From Chthoniobacteraceae bacterium (GTDB lineage: Bacteria; Verrucomicrobiota; Verrucomicrobiia; Chthoniobacterales; Chthoniobacteraceae), in NCBI GenBank assembly GCA_947476045.1, contig CANJNZ010000051.1:1-33731 (forward strand): a stretch of DNA of 33,731 nt, in the 5' to 3' direction. The notes below the pieces were generated by a model. That model was given only the letters and a program-made list of their open reading frames with translations. It made no database searches and was not told the origin of the DNA. Made by a program: the position numbers and the translations under genes. Positions 17,695 to 28,752 of this stretch are shown in pieces (the first letter of the stretch is position 1; every line of letters starts with the position of its first letter).

Positions 17695-18237
17695 TTACAG
17701 TTCGCCCTGAACTTCGATGTAGTCGCCCGGGAGGACCTTCGGATCGAGCGCCGGGTCCTTCTTGATGGCCTTGCGGCTGAAAAACTCAGCTTTGCCAACG
17801 CGAACGATTTTCACTTTGTCGTCCGCATACTCGCCGGGGCCAGAAGCCGAGGCGAGTGCGATGCTGAGGGTCATGTCGGTGGACCACGGCTGGCGGCCAG
17901 GGTTGCGAACGGCCCCCCCAACGATGATGACGCGCTGGTTGGCCACGAGGTTCACCATCACGGTGGGATTCGTGAAGATTTTTTCGTCGCGCATCCGTTT
18001 TTCAATGGCAGATGAGAGTTGCGATGGGGTGAGACCCGCGGCTTTTACACGGCCGATGTATTGCACGGTGACAAAGCCATCCGACACTGCGTATTGCAGG
18101 TGAAACTCCTCGGTAAATTCGCGGGGCGCACCACCGACGACCATTTCAAAGGTATCACCATCGCGAAGCGGGGAATCAGCGCGGAGCGGTGTGAGTGCAA
18201 CAAGGAGTGTGGCGAGGCAGTAGATGAAGTATCGCAT
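17695..18237 (-). CDS. Wza-like polysaccharide export protein (short form)
   Basis: Periplasmic/outer-membrane polysaccharide export component. The signal peptide covers residues 1-20 (cut near LRA-DS). The poly-export domain follows (about 25-105: YAVSDGFVTVQYIGRVKAAGLTP, at 49-71), then a single SLBB-like stretch beginning VIIVGGAVRNPGR (about 108-120). It lacks a lipobox Cys and the further SLBB repeats and membrane-spanning helix of full Wza (about 360-380 residues): only 180 residues are present. It lies 3 bases after the Wzc-like kinase and converges on pgsA with a 9-base gap. Because it is too short to form a Wza-like outer-membrane pore, the beta-barrel protein of the same group may supply the channel; this is inference. 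Confidence 0.85.
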   Translation of the reverse strand: MRYFIYCLATLLVALTPLRADSPLRDGDTFEMVVGGAPREFTEEFHLQYAVSDGFVTVQYIGRVKAAGLTPSQLSSAIEKRMRDEKIFTNPTVMVNLVANQRVIIVGGAVRNPGRQPWSTDMTLSIALASASGPGEYADDKVKIVRVGKAEFFSRKAIKKDPALDPKVLPGDYIEVQGEL

Positions 18238-18240
18238 GGC

Positions 18241-20376
18241 TTAGTATTGTTCTCCCTCTTCAGGCAGCGCTCCGGCTGTGGCGCGGGTTTTTTTATCTCC
18301 TGCCTTCTGATCGCGTTGCGGAGAATAGTAATCGTTGTAGTTCGAGTAGTAAGAATACGAATCGTCCTGCTTTGTGTCCACGTTGTTGAGGACGACACCT
18401 ATGAGATTTCCGCCGACATGTGTGACCGTCTGTTTCACCCTGAGGAGCATGCCGCGCGGGAAGCGCCTGTGCTGGACGACCATAATGGTGTTATCCACCT
18501 CGGAAACCAGCATACTGGCGTCCGACACACCGAGAATAGGCGGCGAGTCGAGGAATACGATGTCGTATTGCATTTTGAGTTGAGAGATGAGGGAGCCCAT
18601 CCGCGGGCTGTTCAGGATACCGGCATCATCCTGCGGGAGTTTGCCACTGGGAATAAAGCTTAGGGTTTCGAGCTTGGTGGGCTTGATGATCGATTCGAGT
18701 TCGGCTTTGTGCTGAATGTAATCTGCAAGACCAACGCTGTTATCTACGTCGAAAAAGCGGTGCTGCGAGGGACGGCGCAAGTCAGCGTCGACGACGAGGA
18801 CTCTGGCTCCTGATTTTGCGTAGGTGTAGGCGAGGTTGATGAGAGTGGTGCTCTTGCCTTCACCGGGGCCGCCAGAAACGAGGGTGTAACTGTTGGCTTC
18901 GCGATCGGTCTGATTGAATTCGATGTTCGCCTTAAGAATGCGATAAACTTCGGCATCGGCTGAGTCGCGCTTCTGCTTGATTAGAACTGCTATTTCCTTC
19001 GGAACGACTGCGAGCACGGTAAGGGATAGATATTTTTCGATGTCTTCTATCGTCTTCACGGAAGTATCGAGATACTCGATGAAGAAGGCGAGACCGACGC
19101 CTACAACTATTCCGATGAGAGCTGCCAGAAGCATATAGACTGGGACTTTTGGCTTCTCTGGATAAAGTCCGGGTTCGGCGCGCTCCCATATTTTGACGGG
19201 AATGGTGGAGAGAACTTGATCAAACTTGGCTGCGGCATACCGCTGCTCGATGGCCATCAATAGTGATTTCGCACTGAGATAATTGGCTTTCTTTTCTACG
19301 TAGCCAGTGAGTCTGGTTTTTTCGTCAATCTGCTTTCCACGGAGTTCATTGAGCTTTTCTTCGAGGGTTTTGAGATTGGCCTCTTCAATGCTAAACTTTG
19401 TTTTTTGAGAGCGTTTAATGCTGTCGAGTTGCTGGCCAAGCGTGGCGCGATAGACATCGCGCTGGGCTCGTAACGATCTCACACGCATGTGGTTTTCACC
19501 CAGACCTGAATTCAGGAGTTTTGCCTCCTCGGCCTGCGCATCCTGTAGAAGGGGCAATGTTTTCAGCATGGTGGGGTCGTCAATATTCAGCGTGCGCAAA
19601 GCCTCCAGCAATTCCTCCGGCTGGAGTTGTTCAATGCGTGAGAGCTGGTTGCGCAATTGATCCACCAGGTTCCGTTTTTCGACGACCATCTGCTCGTTCA
19701 TCACCAGCGGTTTTTCGCTGAGGGAGATCAGGGCGTTGCTGTTCTCAGGATCGGAATCGATGATGCTCTCTTCTGTCCGGATTTTAGCAGAGTCGGCAAA
19801 GAGCTTTTTGACCTCGTCCCGCTTCTTGTCGAGTTCGTCGCGCATTTCCGCCAATGTCTGATCGACGTTCTTCTTAAGGTCATCAATGCGCTTGTCGCGG
19901 TAGGTAATCGCGATGGTGTTTGCGATATCGGCTGCAAGTTTGTTGCTCGTGTTGTAGACACCCACCTCAATCAAAGTGGTATTACGCTGCTCCTGGACAT
20001 TCATACTCCTCTCGAGCACACGGGCCACCCATGATTCAGACATAGGGGTTCCTGCCGGTGATAGTTTGCTGACGAGGTCCAGCTTTTGAATGACAGGATA
20101 GAGAATCTCGGTTTTTTTTAGGATATTGAACTGAGTGCTGATAAAAGTGGGATCAGCCCTGTTCATGCCGCCCATATTGATCGGGTCCAATCCCTTGTTG
20201 TTATCAGGCTTAATTTCGATTGTGACGCGTGAATAGTATTCGCGCGGCAGAAAGAAAACATAGACACCCGCAGTGACCATCACGAGAAAGAAGGTGAGCA
20301 GGATGAGACCCATCCTGAGTTTGATGACGCGCCAGTAGTCGAGGAAGTGTAGTTTGACCTCGGTGTTATCGTTCAT
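18241..20376 (-). CDS. Wzc-like polysaccharide copolymerase / tyrosine kinase
   Basis: Inner-membrane protein controlling polysaccharide polymerisation and export. Order: N-terminal Wzz domain with TM1 (about 23-43), a long periplasmic coiled-coil region (about 160-390), a Pro-rich approach and TM2 (411-433), then a cytoplasmic BY-kinase domain. The kinase has Walker A GGPGEGKST (502-510), Walker A' VLVVDADLRR (526-535) and Walker B VFLDSPP (607-613). The tail is tyrosine-rich: Tyr674, 676, 677, 680, 683, 684 and terminal 711, the usual autophosphorylation cluster. The 711-residue length is normal. It lies between the barrel gene and the Wza-like gene. Kinase and acceptor tail in one chain is the arrangement of proteobacterial Wzc. 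Confidence 0.94.
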   Translation of the reverse strand: MNDNTEVKLHFLDYWRVIKLRMGLILLTFFLVMVTAGVYVFFLPREYYSRVTIEIKPDNNKGLDPINMGGMNRADPTFISTQFNILKKTEILYPVIQKLDLVSKLSPAGTPMSESWVARVLERSMNVQEQRNTTLIEVGVYNTSNKLAADIANTIAITYRDKRIDDLKKNVDQTLAEMRDELDKKRDEVKKLFADSAKIRTEESIIDSDPENSNALISLSEKPLVMNEQMVVEKRNLVDQLRNQLSRIEQLQPEELLEALRTLNIDDPTMLKTLPLLQDAQAEEAKLLNSGLGENHMRVRSLRAQRDVYRATLGQQLDSIKRSQKTKFSIEEANLKTLEEKLNELRGKQIDEKTRLTGYVEKKANYLSAKSLLMAIEQRYAAAKFDQVLSTIPVKIWERAEPGLYPEKPKVPVYMLLAALIGIVVGVGLAFFIEYLDTSVKTIEDIEKYLSLTVLAVVPKEIAVLIKQKRDSADAEVYRILKANIEFNQTDREANSYTLVSGGPGEGKSTTLINLAYTYAKSGARVLVVDADLRRPSQHRFFDVDNSVGLADYIQHKAELESIIKPTKLETLSFIPSGKLPQDDAGILNSPRMGSLISQLKMQYDIVFLDSPPILGVSDASMLVSEVDNTIMVVQHRRFPRGMLLRVKQTVTHVGGNLIGVVLNNVDTKQDDSYSYYSNYNDYYSPQRDQKAGDKKTRATAGALPEEGEQY

Positions 20377-20489: not shown

Positions 20490-22274
20490 TCAAAACTCAT
20501 ATTGCCCTGTAAAAAATAAACGGCTGCGATCGTAGTCACTGGTTCCGGTGGTGCTGCTTCTGAGCGTGTAACTATAACGCGCATTTACCGAAACCCGGCG
20601 GCTGAATTTATAATCAAAAGACAGGCTGGCGTCATAAATCGCTGTGGCATCGGTAGTGCCAAGTTCAGAGGTGATCGTATTGTGAACGTAATTCACAGAG
20701 AGATCTCCTGAAAGGCGGGGCGAAAAAGCGCGTGCGTATCTCAAGCTGCCTCGAAAAGAGACGTTTTGATCGCCTGCACGGGCAGTTTGGTCGAAACCGT
20801 ATCGGGTCGTCGCCACAAACTGGGAACGCGCGCCCGATTGGTAAGACGCGGTAACCTCTCCATAGGGTGCCGTGCCGCTCCCGCCGGAGTCGAATTTTCG
20901 TAATTGCTCGCCAAGTCGAATCGTCCCGCGCAGACGGCGGCTCCATGTCCAATCGGTGCCCAAGAGCAGAAAAACTTCGCTATAGCTGCGATTTTGGTCG
21001 TTCAAATAATCACTAAATCCATAACGCAACTCCCCTACCCAAGTGTAGTGAGGCGACCAGATGTAGCGAAACTCCTGCCCTAAGGTCGCCCCCCAATAAT
21101 CATTCAGCTTGCTGGTTTCCAATTCGTAGCTGATCGCATTCGCGCTGATGCTGGAAACGGTGCTGAAACGCGAGCCCCATCGGTAGCTCAAGTCAACTTT
21201 TGCGTTGCCCGAAAAATAGCTGCCGCCACTGCTTCCGAGCGCACTGTTGAAATTGAGTTGGGAGTAATCTGGCTGCGCCTGATATGAAAGACTGGCGCTT
21301 GTCGTGAACTGCATCCTGGGAGTGAGCTTCCTGAGATACACCAGCGCCATGGAACCATTGTATTCAAGGGGATCGCCCGTGCGATTCCAGTAATAGTCCC
21401 CGCCTATGTTCAGATCAAAAGTGAAAAGCGACCGCTGCTTTGCCCACTGGATATCGAGGTGCGCATTCACATTGCTCACTACGCTCTCATTGCGCTCCTG
21501 CGCCGGGACTCCCGGAATCGTCTGAGTAATGACTTGCTGGGCCTGGAATGGCCGCAAGACCACTTTGCGTTGCACGGTTTGAAAGACCGGTCTGAACGCT
21601 CCTCCGATAAATCGCACGCCAGTTTGTTGTTGTTGCGATACGATAGTCGAAATCTCTGGCTGCTCGGGAATCGTCTGACTGAAAGTTTGCTCAGGAATTT
21701 CTCTGCTATCTGTTGGGGTTTGAAGCGTATTGTCATCAAAACCTATGCCCACCGATGCGCCATAGCGGAAGCGGGGGCGCGTAAAACGCCCCTGCCCGCT
21801 CGTGAAAGTTTGCCCGCCGGAGCCATAAAAACCAGGCGCTGAATATGTGGTTGGCTGCACCTTGGGTTGCGTTGTTTCGGTCGCTTCGGATGAGCCGGCC
21901 GGCACAATCGAAGTCGTGCCAGCGCGCGAGCCGGCGCCAAAAGTAGTAGTCGCCCCGCCGCCCGTGCCAAATGGCGAAGTGCCCCCCGCTGCGCCCGGTG
22001 TGGTTTCGCTAAAGCCAAACGGATCTTTCTTTGGCGCAGTGCCTCCGGTTCCCGTGGTGTCGCCCGTAGTTGGCGTGCTCGGTGTAATCGTAGAGGTTCC
22101 TCCCTGCGGCGAAGCACTCGTCCCGCTACCCGTTGTCCCTCCTCCTGCAGCCCCGCTGCCGGTTGTCCCGCCGCCAGTATCACCACCACCAGTTCCGCCC
22201 GTTTGCGCAAGCGAAACATGCGCCCAAGAGCATCCGGCAAGCAGGAGCAATATCCAAGGCCGGTGATACATCAT
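20490..22274 (-). CDS. Outer-membrane beta-barrel protein with Gly/Thr-rich N-terminus
   Basis: Probable outer-membrane component of the export module. The N-terminal signal MMYHRPWILLLLAGCSWAHV contains LLAGC, a possible lipobox with Cys15, but cleavage after SLAQ is also possible. Residues about 25-125 are a low-complexity Gly/Thr/Ser linker. From about 170 onward there are alternating amphipathic strands with aromatic residues and periplasmic-turn spacing, and the chain ends LFFTGQYEF, with a terminal Phe as expected for a BAM-assembled barrel. Its position directly upstream of the copolymerase (113-base gap) links it to polysaccharide secretion. The family could not be named; a channel role is inferred. 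Confidence 0.72.
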   Translation of the reverse strand: MMYHRPWILLLLAGCSWAHVSLAQTGGTGGGDTGGGTTGSGAAGGGTTGSGTSASPQGGTSTITPSTPTTGDTTGTGGTAPKKDPFGFSETTPGAAGGTSPFGTGGGATTTFGAGSRAGTTSIVPAGSSEATETTQPKVQPTTYSAPGFYGSGGQTFTSGQGRFTRPRFRYGASVGIGFDDNTLQTPTDSREIPEQTFSQTIPEQPEISTIVSQQQQTGVRFIGGAFRPVFQTVQRKVVLRPFQAQQVITQTIPGVPAQERNESVVSNVNAHLDIQWAKQRSLFTFDLNIGGDYYWNRTGDPLEYNGSMALVYLRKLTPRMQFTTSASLSYQAQPDYSQLNFNSALGSSGGSYFSGNAKVDLSYRWGSRFSTVSSISANAISYELETSKLNDYWGATLGQEFRYIWSPHYTWVGELRYGFSDYLNDQNRSYSEVFLLLGTDWTWSRRLRGTIRLGEQLRKFDSGGSGTAPYGEVTASYQSGARSQFVATTRYGFDQTARAGDQNVSFRGSLRYARAFSPRLSGDLSVNYVHNTITSELGTTDATAIYDASLSFDYKFSRRVSVNARYSYTLRSSTTGTSDYDRSRLFFTGQYEF

Positions 22275-22596: not shown

Positions 22597-25500
22597 CTAA
22601 ACTTCCAACAATTTGATCTTGGTCGCAGTTCCGCCGATTTCAATTTCGTCGTTGTGCGGGCCGGCTTGAAGTGCCACGGCGGCACCGTTCACTTTGATGC
22701 TGTCCACCTGTTCGGCCACGATGCCGAAAACAGCGCCTGTAGGTGCATTGGGGTTGGCAGCGACATTGCCGAGTATCACGCTCGCGATGCGTGAAATGAG
22801 AGACTGATTTGCGGGCTGGAACTGGGCCGTCGTCGTCTGCTGGTCGTCGATGGTGCCAAATTTCCCGTCACCGCCCGCATCCACTCCCGCGACGATGCTC
22901 GATGCGCTGAACGTGCCGCTCACGATGATTGTCCCGATACTCGCCCCCGCATCCACAAGCGAACCCCGCGGCGTCCCGACTGCCGATGGGGCGCTGTAGC
23001 CTGCGAGGATTTCTGCAAAAATCACATCCGCACCGAACGTCGCGCTGCGTATTCCCTTGACTGCGGAAATCACAACGGGCGCGGACTTGTCGCCCTTCAC
23101 CGCGGCGGCGCTGCCATTGCCAAACACGTTCAATGTGCCAATGGAACCCGCGCTGAAAATGCCAGCGCTGCCAGCGAGGCTGGTGCCTGCATTTACTCCG
23201 CCCTCGATGCGACCCTCGATGGTCAATTTAGTGATTTCGCCTGCGTCTATAAAACCCGAGCGCAGCAGGCTTGTAACTCCGCCGGGGGTGCCAGTGGCGT
23301 CTGTGCTGCCGCCAATCAGACTTCCTTTGATCACGGCCTGCTTCAGCACTGACTTGCCAGAGTCGCTGAGCACAGAAAGCGCACCGCTTCCACCACCCTT
23401 GCCGCCCCGAATGTCACCATAAGCCAGAAGTTTATTCACCGAGCCCGCGATGGAAATATGGCCCGAATCCTCTCCGCTGCCACCGATGATATTGCCCTTT
23501 CCAGCAACACCCGATTTACCTACCGTCACCGATGATACTTTTGCAAGCACACTCAGTGAATTGACGGTGTCTCCACTGATATCCACAGCGCCGCTCCCAT
23601 CGCCCGAACCGCCCCTGACGTCTCCCTCGATGATTAACGTGCCCTTCAACAAAGCACCCGCAATCACACCCGAGTTGCTGGCGTCCTGTGCAGTCACGCC
23701 AGTGTTTATATTGCCACCGATCACGTCGCCCGTCACACGGGTGCTTCCGAGATTGTGGACGGCAGAAATTCGGGCCGAACTCGAGCCGGAGCCGCCTTGA
23801 ATATCACCATTCACCAGCACGCGCCCGATGCTGTTGTTGGAAAATACGGCTCCCGATTGATTCCCGCTTCCACCGATGAGATTGCCCTCAATTGCAACAT
23901 CCGTTGCGCGCTGCTTGAGTTTGCCAAGCGTGAGGGAGCCGATCTTGCCCGTGTTCACAAAGCCGCTGTTCGCCCCGCTCCCGCCTACGATATCGCCCAG
24001 CACAGTGAGATTGCCGATCGAAGTGATGAAGCGCCCATCCACAGGCAACAGTGCTCCGCTAATCGAGCCCGATCCTCCAACAATCCCCCCGAGTGTCACG
24101 TTGCCGATACCGCCTGTGAATGCTATCTGCCCCGAGCTTTCTGCGGAGCCCCCTCGGATTACTCCTTTCACTACGAGCGTGCCGATGCGCCCAAAGGAGC
24201 CACCTGCAAGCGACGCACCGACCGCGTCGCCAATGACACTCAACGAACCAATCACGTCGCCCTGCACCGTCATTTTGCCAATCGGCCCGAGCACGATGCT
24301 CGAATTCGGATTCAATCCGTTCACTGGCGAATTTGGAATATTTGCCCCTGCGCCCAGCGACCCAACATCCAGCACGTGCACTCCGGCAGGACGACTCGTG
24401 CTGCCGGCGATGATGCGACCGAGATCGCCGGATATCTGCACTTTGCCCAGCGACTGCCCCGAGATGAACTGGAACAATCCCGGCTGTGGCAATGCGGCGT
24501 CAATCGCGCCGACATTCGCTTTTCCATCTCCGAGCACCTCGCCCGTCACAAGCACTTGCGGCCTGGATGTGACGATGATGTTCGCTCCTTGGAACTCGAT
24601 GCCATTATCGCTAAAATCCAGACGCTGGAAGAAGCGCCCACCCAAACTGCCGGAGAGCGTAAAGAAAACATCATTGCCCGAACCGCCGCCGCCCGTGATC
24701 GGAACGGACAGGCTGCCCTTGGAAACTTTCACGTTCACCAGGTCGCCATCCACATCCACATATTCAAATTCACGCCCGCTCACGATGTGGATGTCGTCAT
24801 TCAAAATAATCCCTCGCGGCGAAATCGTCCCGCCAGCGCCGGTAACCGAACTTACTCCCGCCGAAAAATTACTGACGTCGAGGAACAAAAATTCGGACTG
24901 CTCAAATTGAAGATCCGAACTCACATTCACCGCGACCGTCGCACTGGACTGACCGGATGCGATGCTGAAAGCCTGCCCATTCAATGCGGTAAAATCAGTG
25001 CCAGCCTTCGCTGTGCCGTTACGCGTGCTTGCCTTAAAAGTCACCGCACTCCCGCTCACCGGCGCGGTCGTCTCAACTACGAAATTGAGTGTTGCCCCCT
25101 CCACTGCACGGACATCACTCACAAAAATACCGAGCTGCGTATCGCCATTGTCCTGAATCGTGCCAGTCCCTGTGTCATCCACCAGAGTCACGCCGGAGAT
25201 ATTCGTGCCGAATCGCGCATTGGCGAGCTTCACACTGAAAGTCTCGTTGGCTTCCTTCCATGTATCACCCAGCACTGGCACGCTGACCTGCATCGTGCGG
25301 CCATCCGGCGTCGGAGCAAAAGTGAGCGTCCCCTTTGTATTCTCGAAGTCAACCAGTGTTCCGCTCGACTTGGCAGTGCCGTCCAGCGTTGAAAAATCCA
25401 CCTTCACTTCCTCCTGGGTGCCACCAGCCAGCGTGACGTTGAAAACCAGATTTGCACGCCCGCTGTCTCCCTCGACAATCGTCGCATCGCCAATCGTTAG

Positions 25501-28500
25501 ACTCGGCCCGGCATCATCATTTGCCAGCGTTAAAACCGTCTCAGTGGCGCTGAGTATTGCCCCGTGGACATCGCTATACAAAACCTTGAATGACTCGCTT
25601 TGCTCCGCATAGAGATCCCCTTTGATCTGCACGCTGAAAGTCGCGAAAGTCTGTCCCACAGGGATGGTCACATCACCCTCCGTCGCGGTGAAGTCCGCAA
25701 AGCTTCCCGTCGAAACCGCCGTCCCGTCAGCCGTCTTGTAATGAACCGTCACATCGTGCGTGGAAACTTGCGGAATACTCACCGTGAAAACGTGCGCATG
25801 GTCCGTAAGGCCCTCCGGCTCGCTCGCCGCTCCATTAACAGTCAGCAACAAGTCGTCGTTCACAATCGTGCCGGTCGCCTGATTATCGAGAATGGTCACC
25901 GGCAGCGTGGACCCGCCGGGAACGGCAAACGTGGCGCTGGTAATATTGAACAGCAACGTCTCGTCATCCTCATCCGTATTATCGCCAGTCACAGGCACGG
26001 TGATTTCCTTCTCCGTCTGCCCGGCACTAAAAACCACGGACAATGTGGTTGGCACACTAAAATCAGAACCCAGCGATGCAGTATCTGCCGCAACGTCATA
26101 CACCACGGTGATATCCCCGCCCGCCGTGGCCGGCGTCGTTCCATCCGCGCCCACGAGCTTTATTTTGAAAACCATGTTCGTCGTTCCAGCCCCTCCCTCA
26201 ACCACACGAGCATCACCGACAGTTACACGAGGCAGGCTCGCAGCATCGTTATCCGCAATTGTCACGATGGCCTCGCCGCCGGTCGTGGAAATAATGCCAT
26301 TCGTTCCGTTGTTGAGCTTCACTTTGAAAGTCTCACTTCCCTCCGCGAGACTGTCTTGCTTGATGGGCACACGGATGATGGTCGCAGCCTCCTGCTGCCC
26401 CGTGGCGAAGGTGACACTGCCGGTCACTGACGTGAAATCCGTCCCGCTGGTGGCCTGCCGCGCGCCGACCGTGTCATCGGCTGCCGTGGCAAAAAAGACG
26501 ACGCCCGGCACGTCGAACTGGCCCTCGCGCACGACCTTGAATTCCACGAATTGCTGTGCGCCACCTGCAGCCTCCTCATCCACTGTCAGCGGCCCATTAT
26601 TCACGCGCACAAGTTTGTAGCTCGCCTCATCATTGCGAATCGTTCCTGTCGCACTGCCATCGCTGATGGTCGCGCCGACCGGAGTGCTCAAATTTACGAA
26701 AAACGTCTCGTCTGCTTCGTTGATGGCATCACCATGAACCGTCACCTGAATCTGTTTCGACACTTCCGCAGGCGCGAAAGTAAGAATGTCAGACTTCGCA
26801 TCATAATCATTCGCCAGCACCGTGGCCGTTCCATCCACCGTGGTATAATTTACTGTGCTCGTCAGCGTGGTCAAACCACCGCGGGATACCGTGAAAGTAA
26901 ATATTTTTGTCCCGCTATCTCCCTCCACTTCACTCACGTCGGAAATGCTAAACGTGCTCAGATCATTCGTGCCAATCGTCGCCGTGCCGCTGATGCCCGT
27001 TCCCACATCCGCATTGGTCGTCGTAGCGAGCACGTTCACTTTGAAAGTCTCATCCAGTTCGTCAGTCGGATCGTTCGTGGTCGCAACCCGTATCTGCCCG
27101 GTCGTTTGTCCCGCAGGAATCGTCAGCGTTTGCTCCAAGGTAGTCTCAGTAAAGTCGCCCGAAGACGCGCTACCTACCTCTGTCACCCAATGCACATCCA
27201 CGGGTTTTGCCGACGGCGAACTCAAAGTCACAGTAAACACCGCCTCCTGACCTTCCGTCACGGTCGGACTGCTGATCGTCAGCGTTGGCGCAGCATCGTC
27301 GTCCGTAATCGTGGCCTCCACCGTTCCTGTGGCAAACTGGGCGTTCGTAGCCCCTGTCAGCGTCAAGTTCAGCTTCTCGTCATTTTCATCGAGCGTATCG
27401 CCGATCACGCCCAGCACGATGTCCGCCGATGTCTGTCCCGCTGGAATCGTCACCGTCAAATTCGTGGGCACCGTGAAATCCACACCCGCCGTGGCCGTCC
27501 CGCCTGCGACGGTGAACGTCACCAGCACATCATGCGACGATACCTGCGACAGATTCACCGGAATGTGAAACTGCCCCGTCCCGGTGTTCCCCTCTGCAAA
27601 CGTCGTATTCGCTTCGATAGTGACCATCAGGTCATCATTCAAAATCGTCCCAACGCTCTGACCATCCGTGATCGTAAGCGTCGTTGGGTTTGCCTGTTCA
27701 GGCAACGTCGTGGTCGCATTCGTCAAGTTCACGTGGAATCGCTCATCCAGTTCATCCGTCGTATCAACGAGTATCGGCACTGAAATCGTCACTGTTTTCT
27801 GTCCCTTGGCGATACTCTGATGCGTCATATTTATCGCTGTAAAATCCACACCCGACGCAGCCGCATCTGCACCAGTGGCTAAAGCGGACGCCACATCAAA
27901 AAACACATCAGCACCCGCAAGAGCGGAAAGCGTGACGGTAAATTCCATATTCTTCGTCCCGCTGTCGCCTTCGGTGACTTGTGCATCACCGATGCTGATC
28001 GTCGGCGCAGGATCGTTCGCGTCCTGGATTTTTCCGATACCCTCCCCATCCACAATCACAGCTCCGCTAGCCTCAGTGAGCAGGACTTTAAAAATCTCCT
28101 CCGGCGATTCAAAAGAAAGGTCTCCATTGATGGTCACCGCAAATGTCTTAAGCGCCTCGTTCGGCAGGAAAGTTATCGTCTCCGTCTTCGCTACAAAATC
28201 CGCTGCAGCACCCGCAGAACTCGCAGAAAAGTCCATCGTCGAAACTTTAACCGTGACCTGAAGACTCGATGCCGGCGTGCGACTCACTGTAAAAATCGCT
28301 GTTGATGTGCCGTTATCCCCTTCCGCAATCGTCACGTCGTTGATGCTCAAAAACGCATCGTCGTTTAATATGGTCGCCCCCACCTGATTCGCTCCCAAAG
28401 TTGCGTTACTCGAGGGGCTGGTCAGTTCCACGGCGAAGGTTTCATCCGCCTCATTGTTCGTGTCCTGCTTCACCTTCACTGTGAAAGTCGTCTCTGTCTG

Positions 28501-28752
28501 GCCGGCGGGGATCGTTACCAGTTCGTCCTTAAATTCAAAATCTGAGTCAGCCAAAGTGGCCGTTCCATCCCGGGTTATTGCATGCACCGTCACATCCGAA
28601 GCATCCGCAACGTCCAGTTTGATCTTAAAAACGTAATCCGTGAACGAACCTGTCCCGCTGCCCTCGTTCTTGGGATTGTCAACGGGAGTAACAATAGAGA
28701 GCACCGCAGGAGCGATACGGGATTCCAGGGGCTCGATAGTCGGGAACTTCAT
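22597..28752 (-). CDS. Giant Calx-beta repeat / Gly-rich beta-solenoid surface protein
   Basis: A 2051-residue putative surface or matrix protein. The ATG at 28752 gives MKFPTIEPLESRIAPAVL, an LESR/LEPR-type N-terminal motif found on large exported PVC proteins (from memory). Residues to about 1318 hold eleven Calx-beta-like repeats of about 118 residues. Each runs from an E-G-D-x-G-T-type start, through x-D-G-T-A, to a T-I-x-N-D-D end; such domains often bind calcium. The rest is a Gly/Ser-rich region in which GDIxGGSGxxSG-like motifs recur about every 33 residues (eleven copies, DNA about 23190-24170), suggesting a beta-solenoid. No PEP-CTERM, LPXTG or type IX tail is seen; the chain ends KIKLLEV. 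It precedes tRNA-Gly and the export module on the same strand. Adhesion or matrix anchoring is inferred. Confidence 0.88.
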   Translation of the reverse strand: MKFPTIEPLESRIAPAVLSIVTPVDNPKNEGSGTGSFTDYVFKIKLDVADASDVTVHAITRDGTATLADSDFEFKDELVTIPAGQTETTFTVKVKQDTNNEADETFAVELTSPSSNATLGANQVGATILNDDAFLSINDVTIAEGDNGTSTAIFTVSRTPASSLQVTVKVSTMDFSASSAGAAADFVAKTETITFLPNEALKTFAVTINGDLSFESPEEIFKVLLTEASGAVIVDGEGIGKIQDANDPAPTISIGDAQVTEGDSGTKNMEFTVTLSALAGADVFFDVASALATGADAAASGVDFTAINMTHQSIAKGQKTVTISVPILVDTTDELDERFHVNLTNATTTLPEQANPTTLTITDGQSVGTILNDDLMVTIEANTTFAEGNTGTGQFHIPVNLSQVSSHDVLVTFTVAGGTATAGVDFTVPTNLTVTIPAGQTSADIVLGVIGDTLDENDEKLNLTLTGATNAQFATGTVEATITDDDAAPTLTISSPTVTEGQEAVFTVTLSSPSAKPVDVHWVTEVGSASSGDFTETTLEQTLTIPAGQTTGQIRVATTNDPTDELDETFKVNVLATTTNADVGTGISGTATIGTNDLSTFSISDVSEVEGDSGTKIFTFTVSRGGLTTLTSTVNYTTVDGTATVLANDYDAKSDILTFAPAEVSKQIQVTVHGDAINEADETFFVNLSTPVGATISDGSATGTIRNDEASYKLVRVNNGPLTVDEEAAGGAQQFVEFKVVREGQFDVPGVVFFATAADDTVGARQATSGTDFTSVTGSVTFATGQQEAATIIRVPIKQDSLAEGSETFKVKLNNGTNGIISTTGGEAIVTIADNDAASLPRVTVGDARVVEGGAGTTNMVFKIKLVGADGTTPATAGGDITVVYDVAADTASLGSDFSVPTTLSVVFSAGQTEKEITVPVTGDNTDEDDETLLFNITSATFAVPGGSTLPVTILDNQATGTIVNDDLLLTVNGAASEPEGLTDHAHVFTVSIPQVSTHDVTVHYKTADGTAVSTGSFADFTATEGDVTIPVGQTFATFSVQIKGDLYAEQSESFKVLYSDVHGAILSATETVLTLANDDAGPSLTIGDATIVEGDSGRANLVFNVTLAGGTQEEVKVDFSTLDGTAKSSGTLVDFENTKGTLTFAPTPDGRTMQVSVPVLGDTWKEANETFSVKLANARFGTNISGVTLVDDTGTGTIQDNGDTQLGIFVSDVRAVEGATLNFVVETTAPVSGSAVTFKASTRNGTAKAGTDFTALNGQAFSIASGQSSATVAVNVSSDLQFEQSEFLFLDVSNFSAGVSSVTGAGGTISPRGIILNDDIHIVSGREFEYVDVDGDLVNVKVSKGSLSVPITGGGGSGNDVFFTLSGSLGGRFFQRLDFSDNGIEFQGANIIVTSRPQVLVTGEVLGDGKANVGAIDAALPQPGLFQFISGQSLGKVQISGDLGRIIAGSTSRPAGVHVLDVGSLGAGANIPNSPVNGLNPNSSIVLGPIGKMTVQGDVIGSLSVIGDAVGASLAGGSFGRIGTLVVKGVIRGGSAESSGQIAFTGGIGNVTLGGIVGGSGSISGALLPVDGRFITSIGNLTVLGDIVGGSGANSGFVNTGKIGSLTLGKLKQRATDVAIEGNLIGGSGNQSGAVFSNNSIGRVLVNGDIQGGSGSSSARISAVHNLGSTRVTGDVIGGNINTGVTAQDASNSGVIAGALLKGTLIIEGDVRGGSGDGSGAVDISGDTVNSLSVLAKVSSVTVGKSGVAGKGNIIGGSGEDSGHISIAGSVNKLLAYGDIRGGKGGGSGALSVLSDSGKSVLKQAVIKGSLIGGSTDATGTPGGVTSLLRSGFIDAGEITKLTIEGRIEGGVNAGTSLAGSAGIFSAGSIGTLNVFGNGSAAAVKGDKSAPVVISAVKGIRSATFGADVIFAEILAGYSAPSAVGTPRGSLVDAGASIGTIIVSGTFSASSIVAGVDAGGDGKFGTIDDQQTTTAQFQPANQSLISRIASVILGNVAANPNAPTGAVFGIVAEQVDSIKVNGAAVALQAGPHNDEIEIGGTATKIKLLEV

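Follow-up and report, generated by a model that had tools for sequence, protein, structure and literature searches.

The 33,731-nucleotide stretch of DNA analyzed here (the window; positions 1 to 33,731 of contig 51 in the Chthoniobacteraceae assembly GCA_947476045.1, which comprises 4.37 Mb and is 96.8% complete) encodes a giant protein of 2051 residues on its reverse strand (22597..28752, with the ATG at 28752 and the stop codon at 22597-22599) in an uninterrupted open reading frame, and a full-length orthologue with 74% identity is found on contig C97 of G060, a genome from the window's genus. On balance, we favor the interpretation that this protein is an exported component of the exopolysaccharide matrix or cell surface, using a leader-dependent route like that of ribosomally synthesized and post-translationally modified peptides (RiPPs) via a cassette of M50 metalloprotease, HlyD, and TolC-type genes. 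The data show a leader that recurs at the N-termini of other proteins, co-occurrence and linkage of the cassette with this leader in relatives, a cassette protein whose modeled folds resemble leader-binding domains and site-2 proteases, and a conserved position of the giant gene upstream of a polysaccharide export module. The genome-wide leader tag together with the co-occurring protease-HlyD-TolC cassette is a more interesting object than the repeat architecture of the protein itself.

The leader of the giant protein (MKFPTIEPLESRIAPA, residues 1-16; 28705..28752, reverse strand) contains the motif ExLExRIAPA, and a search of all 4.37 Mb with a degenerate DNA pattern detected 19 copies of this motif compared with none for the reversed pattern that served as control. 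All of them are N-terminal, 2-38 codons after an in-frame ATG, and a single tagged frame is broken soon after the motif. The bodies behind the tag are unrelated (Calx-beta, FG-GAP, right-handed beta-helix, and cyclophilin as well as several without any family), and so, for the most part, are the C-termini. By a simple composition measure, hydrophobic runs in the 19 leaders reach at most 2-5 residues so that none of them displays the hydrophobic core before a cleavage site that marks classical Sec signal peptides, nor does any hydrophobic signal core lie ahead of the motif in the giant protein. A preliminary description of this DNA had suggested that the motif stands in place of a classical signal peptide, and we agree that it is a real alternative to one that occurs far above chance. 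It is very improbable that the motif is a chance match or that a mis-called start hides a classical signal peptide: In several cases, the open frame does extend farther upstream by some codons, but the open stretch upstream of the giant protein's start is not hydrophobic, every genomic copy is N-terminal where the control gave nothing, and untagged sister genomes do not contain any copy. No NCBIfam model matched the peptides and proteins of the RIAPA class that we tested, and the recurrent neighbors of tagged genes beyond the polysaccharide module belong mainly to common families such as ABC ATPases, kinases, or sulfatases. As a side observation, a peptidyl-prolyl isomerase domain of the cyclophilin type is present in one tagged protein (L170:481-2850, reverse strand), which is not the usual kind of cargo behind a surface tag. 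The gene of this protein adjoins that of a tagged solenoid protein; pairs that look similar occur at loci L081 and L076.

Across an order-wide sample of 147 genomes, amplification of the tag to 8-25 copies is confined to part of one family, and sister genera as well as one genome of the window's genus have no copy at all. A scan of named genomes found that matches in Verrucomicrobia and Planctomycetes are nearly all located at the N-termini of large proteins, with many of the tagged contigs coming from Chthoniobacter/Spartobacteria-type Verrucomicrobia. Matches in other phyla mostly lie in short or unrelated frames, and Magnetococcales are a real exception. At two loci of Zixibacteria (L084 near 4684, forward strand; L108 near 2912, reverse strand), very short open reading frames contain EELEERIAPA with another 7-9 residues after it, and the cassette described below was not seen within these 8-kb loci.

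Two leads pointed to this candidate export cassette, the first being a 75-residue LEDRIAPA peptide encoded next to PqqD-M50 and HlyD genes and the second a 1207-residue LEDRIAPA protein of Magnetococcales encoded next to OEP and HlyD genes. In what we call cassette I, a GAF-HlyD protein, an HlyD protein, an M50-HlyD fusion of about 740 residues with an HExxH motif, and a TolC-type OEP follow each other in nearly constant order. We searched 31 genomes with the M50 protein of the lead, after the exporter hypothesis had been formed, and found a distinct, high-scoring class of M50 proteins in each of the family's ten other tagged genomes and in 0/16 untagged ones. An M50 profile over all 147 genomes identified members in 14/15 tagged compared with 11/132 untagged genomes (Fisher p = 4.6e-12), and within the family, the top-scoring class is present in 10 of 11 tagged and none of 18 untagged genomes (p = 5.5e-7), with shared ancestry being ignored in both tests. 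The tag and M50 genes accompany each other in no fewer than four of the order's families (f1, f6, f12, and f13). Physical linkage takes several forms: In G072, 97 bp separate a tagged gene from the cassette downstream of it, two tagged genes directly follow the cassette in G068 and G080, one is divergent from it in G139, and a 133-residue LEQRIAPG peptide (MKHLNLELEKLEQRIAPGVMHGASGGGG; L278:10273-10671, reverse strand) is encoded directly upstream of the M50-HlyD gene in G087. The RIAPG variant of this peptide had escaped the strict search pattern. The preliminary description had asked whether such N-termini co-occur with a specific secretion system, and in related genomes they do so with the M50-HlyD-TolC cassette, which was not found in the window's own assembly.

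The cassette protease shows the M50 motifs HExxH and NPxxxxDG in the form of HELGHG and NPLMRFDGYY, which are invariant in nine sequences. Its closest NCBIfam models are RiPP maturation proteases, namely daptide_HExxH (NF041824) and YydH/LiaK (NF058609), and with 169.8 bits it stays below the NF041824 cut-off of 300, while Pfam PqqD matches the protein at L098 with 1.3e-4 just below the gathering score. In a structural model of one cassette protease, of low confidence (predicted local distance difference test score, pLDDT, of 56), residues 34-110 resemble the leader-bound RiPP recognition element (RRE) of TbiB1 (Z 8.3) and PqqD (Z 7.8; root-mean-square deviation, rmsd, of 1.7 over 59 residues), and residues 145-314 resemble the site-2 protease 3b4r (Z 9.1). 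These RRE/PqqD and site-2 protease matches are coherent and top the structure list, and the model, low in confidence as it is, displays an N-terminal RRE/PqqD-like domain followed by a site-2-protease-like fold. An earlier idea based on loose resemblance to double-glycine leaders and C39 peptidases was dropped once the M50 and RRE genes had appeared, and no C39 search was made.

From these data, we infer a mechanism in which the leader would be recognized and cleaved and the protein would be exported, reach the surface, and bind the polymer. The first 16 residues of the giant protein would serve as a leader peptide of the LE-x-RIAPA class that is common to a set of proteins in this lineage, and this leader would be recognized by the PqqD-like RRE domain of an inner-membrane fusion of site-2-type metalloprotease and HlyD. 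Cleavage would probably occur at RIAPA or close to it, and the protein would then pass through the partner HlyD adaptors and the TolC-type channel. On the outside, its constant beta-helix domain may bind or organize the polymer delivered by the neighboring export module of barrel, Wzz-kinase, and outer membrane polysaccharide export (OPX) protein, with the Calx-beta array as a putative spacer of variable length.

Several results weigh against this interpretation. Besides the low confidence of the protease model, a sequence search of PDB structures with the RRE region did not find any RRE. The co-occurrence tests take no account of shared ancestry, and a tagged gene is part of the same apparent operon at 1/10 of the cassette-I loci of the family. 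At the level of the phylum, M50-HlyD proteins are encoded by 50/240 genomes compared with 6 that have the motif, and only 3/6 of the latter also encode M50-HlyD, which does not support a one-to-one relation of tag and cassette. No energy source was found for the cassette, and an accessory gene for a SecA-like ATPase is absent from several tagged genomes. Neither protein nor profile searches with M50 located the cassette in the window's own assembly. With regard to this last point, the cassette contig of the closest relative aligns to own contig C53 (88% nucleotide identity over 4.8 kb), and C53 ends approximately 230 bp past the end of this alignment, close to a dispersed repeat, where the cassette of the relative begins. 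An assembly break at C53 is therefore a likely, if unproven, cause for the absence, which does not prove that the cassette is present. The short dispersed repeat near the end of C53 (L237:4587-4666) is also found on own contigs C21, C26, C54, C74, and C84.

Since the M50 family is wider than the tag, it must serve other leaders or substrates as well, and proteins with an N-terminal LEPR-XLL motif as well as small peptides are obvious candidates. This breadth also lends some weight to an alternative view in which the tag genuinely serves as a leader for export or sorting but is read by another machine (Sec with an unrecognized adaptor or an unknown translocase) while the cassette handles small RiPP-like peptides and merely travels along. 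The nearest named M50 relatives do mature small peptides, small tagged peptides are encoded next to M50 genes, and the lack of an energy source would fit as well. We nonetheless consider this alternative unlikely because large tagged proteins are encoded directly beside the cassette in G072, G068, G080, and Magnetococcales and because the co-occurrence is tight even within a single genus, where the untagged genomes G120, G155, and G156 have no high-scoring cassette-I protease.

Beta-rich repeat adhesins often use type I secretion, to which HlyD and TolC parts are common. The motif could accordingly act once export is complete, as a cleavable element for retention or attachment like that of LapA with its periplasmic cleavage, on proteins exported by a C-terminal type I signal, and the solenoid model of the giant protein indeed resembles a region of an ice adhesin. 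This explanation appears quite improbable to us: No ABC ATPase is encoded within cassette I alongside HlyD and TolC (an unlinked one is possible), no LapA retention or RTX family scored over the cut-off in Pfam and NCBIfam scans of the giant protein, and the C-termini of tagged proteins are mostly unrelated, with the conserved C-terminal block being internal in one protein. A SecA-like ATPase was considered as a required part of cassette I and rejected, since the genomes G000 (that of the window), G083, G015, G088, G124, and G072 gave matches only in frames of approximately 990-1070 residues, the size of housekeeping SecA. Shorter SecA-like ATPases of about 600-670 residues are nevertheless encoded in M50/HlyD/TolC cassettes of several genomes (L250:5038-6990, forward strand; L255:5849-7657, forward strand; L256:5114-7114, reverse strand), with SecA_DEAD, PP_bind, and P-loop domains in the case of L250, and ATPases like these are also present in Singulisphaera and in one genome of the Gemmataceae.

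In untagged genome G120, a related M50/HlyD/TolC cassette with the accessory SecA-like gene lies near the gene of a LEPR-XLL-type protein (LESIEDRILCSAAP). At L250:3-2807 (reverse strand), in an untagged genome of the window's genus, a LEPR-XLL-type protein (KLLLESIEDRILCSAAP) is encoded beside the second M50 cassette, which suggests a second dialect of the leader. More tentatively than for the giant protein itself, we propose a leader-directed route for giant surface proteins of Gram-negative bacteria in which a membrane-embedded RRE-site-2 protease-HlyD protein would read and cut an N-terminal LE-x-R leader before passage through TolC, without any ABC ATPase, and in which LEPR-XLL and LE-x-RIAPA would be two dialects used in Verrucomicrobia, Planctomycetes, and Magnetococcales.

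The genomic context of the giant gene points to exopolysaccharides. It is followed on the same strand by genes for an outer-membrane beta-barrel of 594 residues (DUF5777/BBP2_2; a putative polysaccharide porin; 20490..22274), a Wzz chain-length regulator of 711 residues fused to an ATPase of the bacterial tyrosine kinase (BY-kinase) type (18241..20376), and a short Poly_export (OPX) protein of 180 residues (17695..18237). This arrangement matches the modules of short OPX proteins (up to 280 residues) and beta-barrels that form an established composite translocon (PMC9601211). The module noted in the preliminary description is indeed there, and the order of giant gene and three export genes is conserved in seven genomes of four genera (the window's, G060, G083, G005, G104, G088, and G072), while the giant gene also precedes the barrel gene in an eighth (G154). 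We view the link to the export module as meaningful because of this conservation across four genera. The giant protein might instead be tied to the module by position only and be an ordinary adhesin or a surface-layer-like protein, which would still be compatible with the leader route. The gap of about 320 bp to the barrel gene means that the giant gene may be transcribed apart, untagged genomes have the module but not the giant gene, and tagged genome G015 has no giant gene at this locus, a point that also counts against our interpretation. Given that position and order are the same across several genera, we regard a purely positional link as somewhat unlikely. In untagged genomes, something else precedes the barrel gene; in three from the window's genus (G120, G155, and G156), for example, it is a gene that resembles one for GMP synthase. 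The polysaccharide module was rejected as reader of the tag because the barrel gene is also found in these untagged genomes.

Behind the leader, 11 Calx-beta repeats span approximately residues 17-1310 (24823..28704, reverse strand), exactly the number given in the preliminary description. A Pfam scan delineated 11 stretches with a total E-value of 1e-92 (PF03160 at 306 bits compared with a gathering score of 27) and no other family over the cut-off. Their number differs between orthologous loci, however, with 11 in the window, 9 in G060, 18 in G083, 14 in G104, and none in G072, whose locus encodes a tandem of two short solenoid proteins with the tag. The constant part is therefore the leader together with the C-terminal solenoid, and the earlier notion of Calx-beta array plus solenoid as the defining unit has to be given up.

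The glycine-rich C-terminal domain (about residues 1320-2051, starting with YVDVDGDLVNVKVSKG; 22600..24795, reverse strand) covers the last 730 or so residues and did not match any Pfam or NCBIfam family over the cut-off. It constitutes a separate family, and the window's genome encodes paralogues, some of them with the tag directly in front. On contig C41 of this genome, the broken one of the 19 tagged frames (L167:6355-6561, reverse strand) stops after 69 codons and the solenoid domain continues in another frame, which makes it either a pseudogene or an assembly error. The glycine-rich region exists at the length originally described, but its GGSGxxSG-like units number about 9-10 and are mostly concentrated in residues ~1559-1814 instead of filling all of it (cluster at residues ~1556-1821; 23290..24087, reverse strand). 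A regular 33-residue period was not reproduced: Spacing is irregular, mostly 26-61 residues, and glycines recur most strongly at lags of 26 and 31. Lag 26 scores 15.2 compared with a mean of 10.2 and a maximum of 15.8 for shuffled sequences, and is therefore high yet not above every shuffle. The best conserved block comprises residues ~1917-2050 (22603..23004, reverse strand) with dense invariant columns (A631-E764 of the aligned fragment).

An AlphaFold2 model of this domain from eight sequences (pLDDT 68; predicted template modeling score, pTM, of 0.74) had no significant match in Foldseek. After re-alignment of Foldseek's top 52 chains with VIA-align, the best match was the Ca-dependent beta-helical antifreeze protein 3p4g (Z 17.0; rmsd 3.4 over 283 residues), followed by HxuA, VacA p55, and an autotransporter passenger (Z 10-11.5). 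We read the domain as a beta-helix on the basis of this model; the fold alone does not give the function. Structure prediction, proposed at the outset for the C-terminal half, resulted in these beta-helix matches.

Classical signals are often missing from the large surface-type proteins of Verrucomicrobia and Planctomycetes, whose secretion route has gone unrecognized. If our proposal is true, a single short leader together with a single cassette would account for how an entire class of these proteins is exported, RiPP-style leader recognition would act on proteins of thousands of residues, and the leader and RRE domain would offer an easy way to test this. The conserved association with a polysaccharide exporter would, in addition, suggest that the extracellular matrix in these lineages has a protein component.

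Among known systems, the LEPR-XLL class (NF012209) is similar in that a short N-terminal LE-x-R motif precedes large, otherwise unrelated proteins, though its model matches 0/19 of the RIAPA proteins. A search of the window's genome with this model gave one match over the cut-off (C21:49798) and one below (C19:38035), the former in the sole LEPR-XLL-class protein of this genome (IEVLEPRFVLSATP; L174, C21:46648-50025, reverse strand). We know of no export machine that has been named for this class. The daptide (NF041824) and YydH/LiaK (NF058609) proteases are M50 metalloproteases of the same kind, but the cassette protease stays below their curated cut-offs, is fused to HlyD, and has candidate substrates of up to thousands of residues. 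C39-type ABC exporters use HlyD and TolC parts and cut an N-terminal double-glycine leader with a protease linked to the exporter. In contrast, no ABC ATPase or C39 peptidase was seen in the cassette (no search was aimed at C39), and the leader ends in APA, not GG.

The neighboring genes for a short OPX protein of 180 residues, a beta-barrel, and a Wzz-type co-polymerase resemble the EpsY/EpsX translocon, but the accessible text of that study does not mention a gene for a giant tagged protein (PMC9601211). The PEP-CTERM/EpsH exosortase system likewise involves a sorting signal on many unrelated proteins and is linked to exopolysaccharide genes (PMC1569441), but its signal is C-terminal, whereas the one described here is N-terminal and hydrophilic. 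An NCBIfam scan of the giant protein revealed no PEP-CTERM family (exosortase genes were not searched for in the genome). In the open-licence literature that we searched, neither the motif nor an M50-HlyD-TolC route was the subject of any paper, in line with the earlier impression of an undescribed secretion route. The individual parts are known, i.e., Calx-beta repeats, beta-helices, OPX/barrel modules, RRE and M50 proteins in peptide maturation, and the LE-x-R motif in the LEPR-XLL model. Their combination into a putative cassette of protease and adaptors that would read the leaders of giant surface proteins is not described in this literature, and there is a real chance that it represents a new secretion route.

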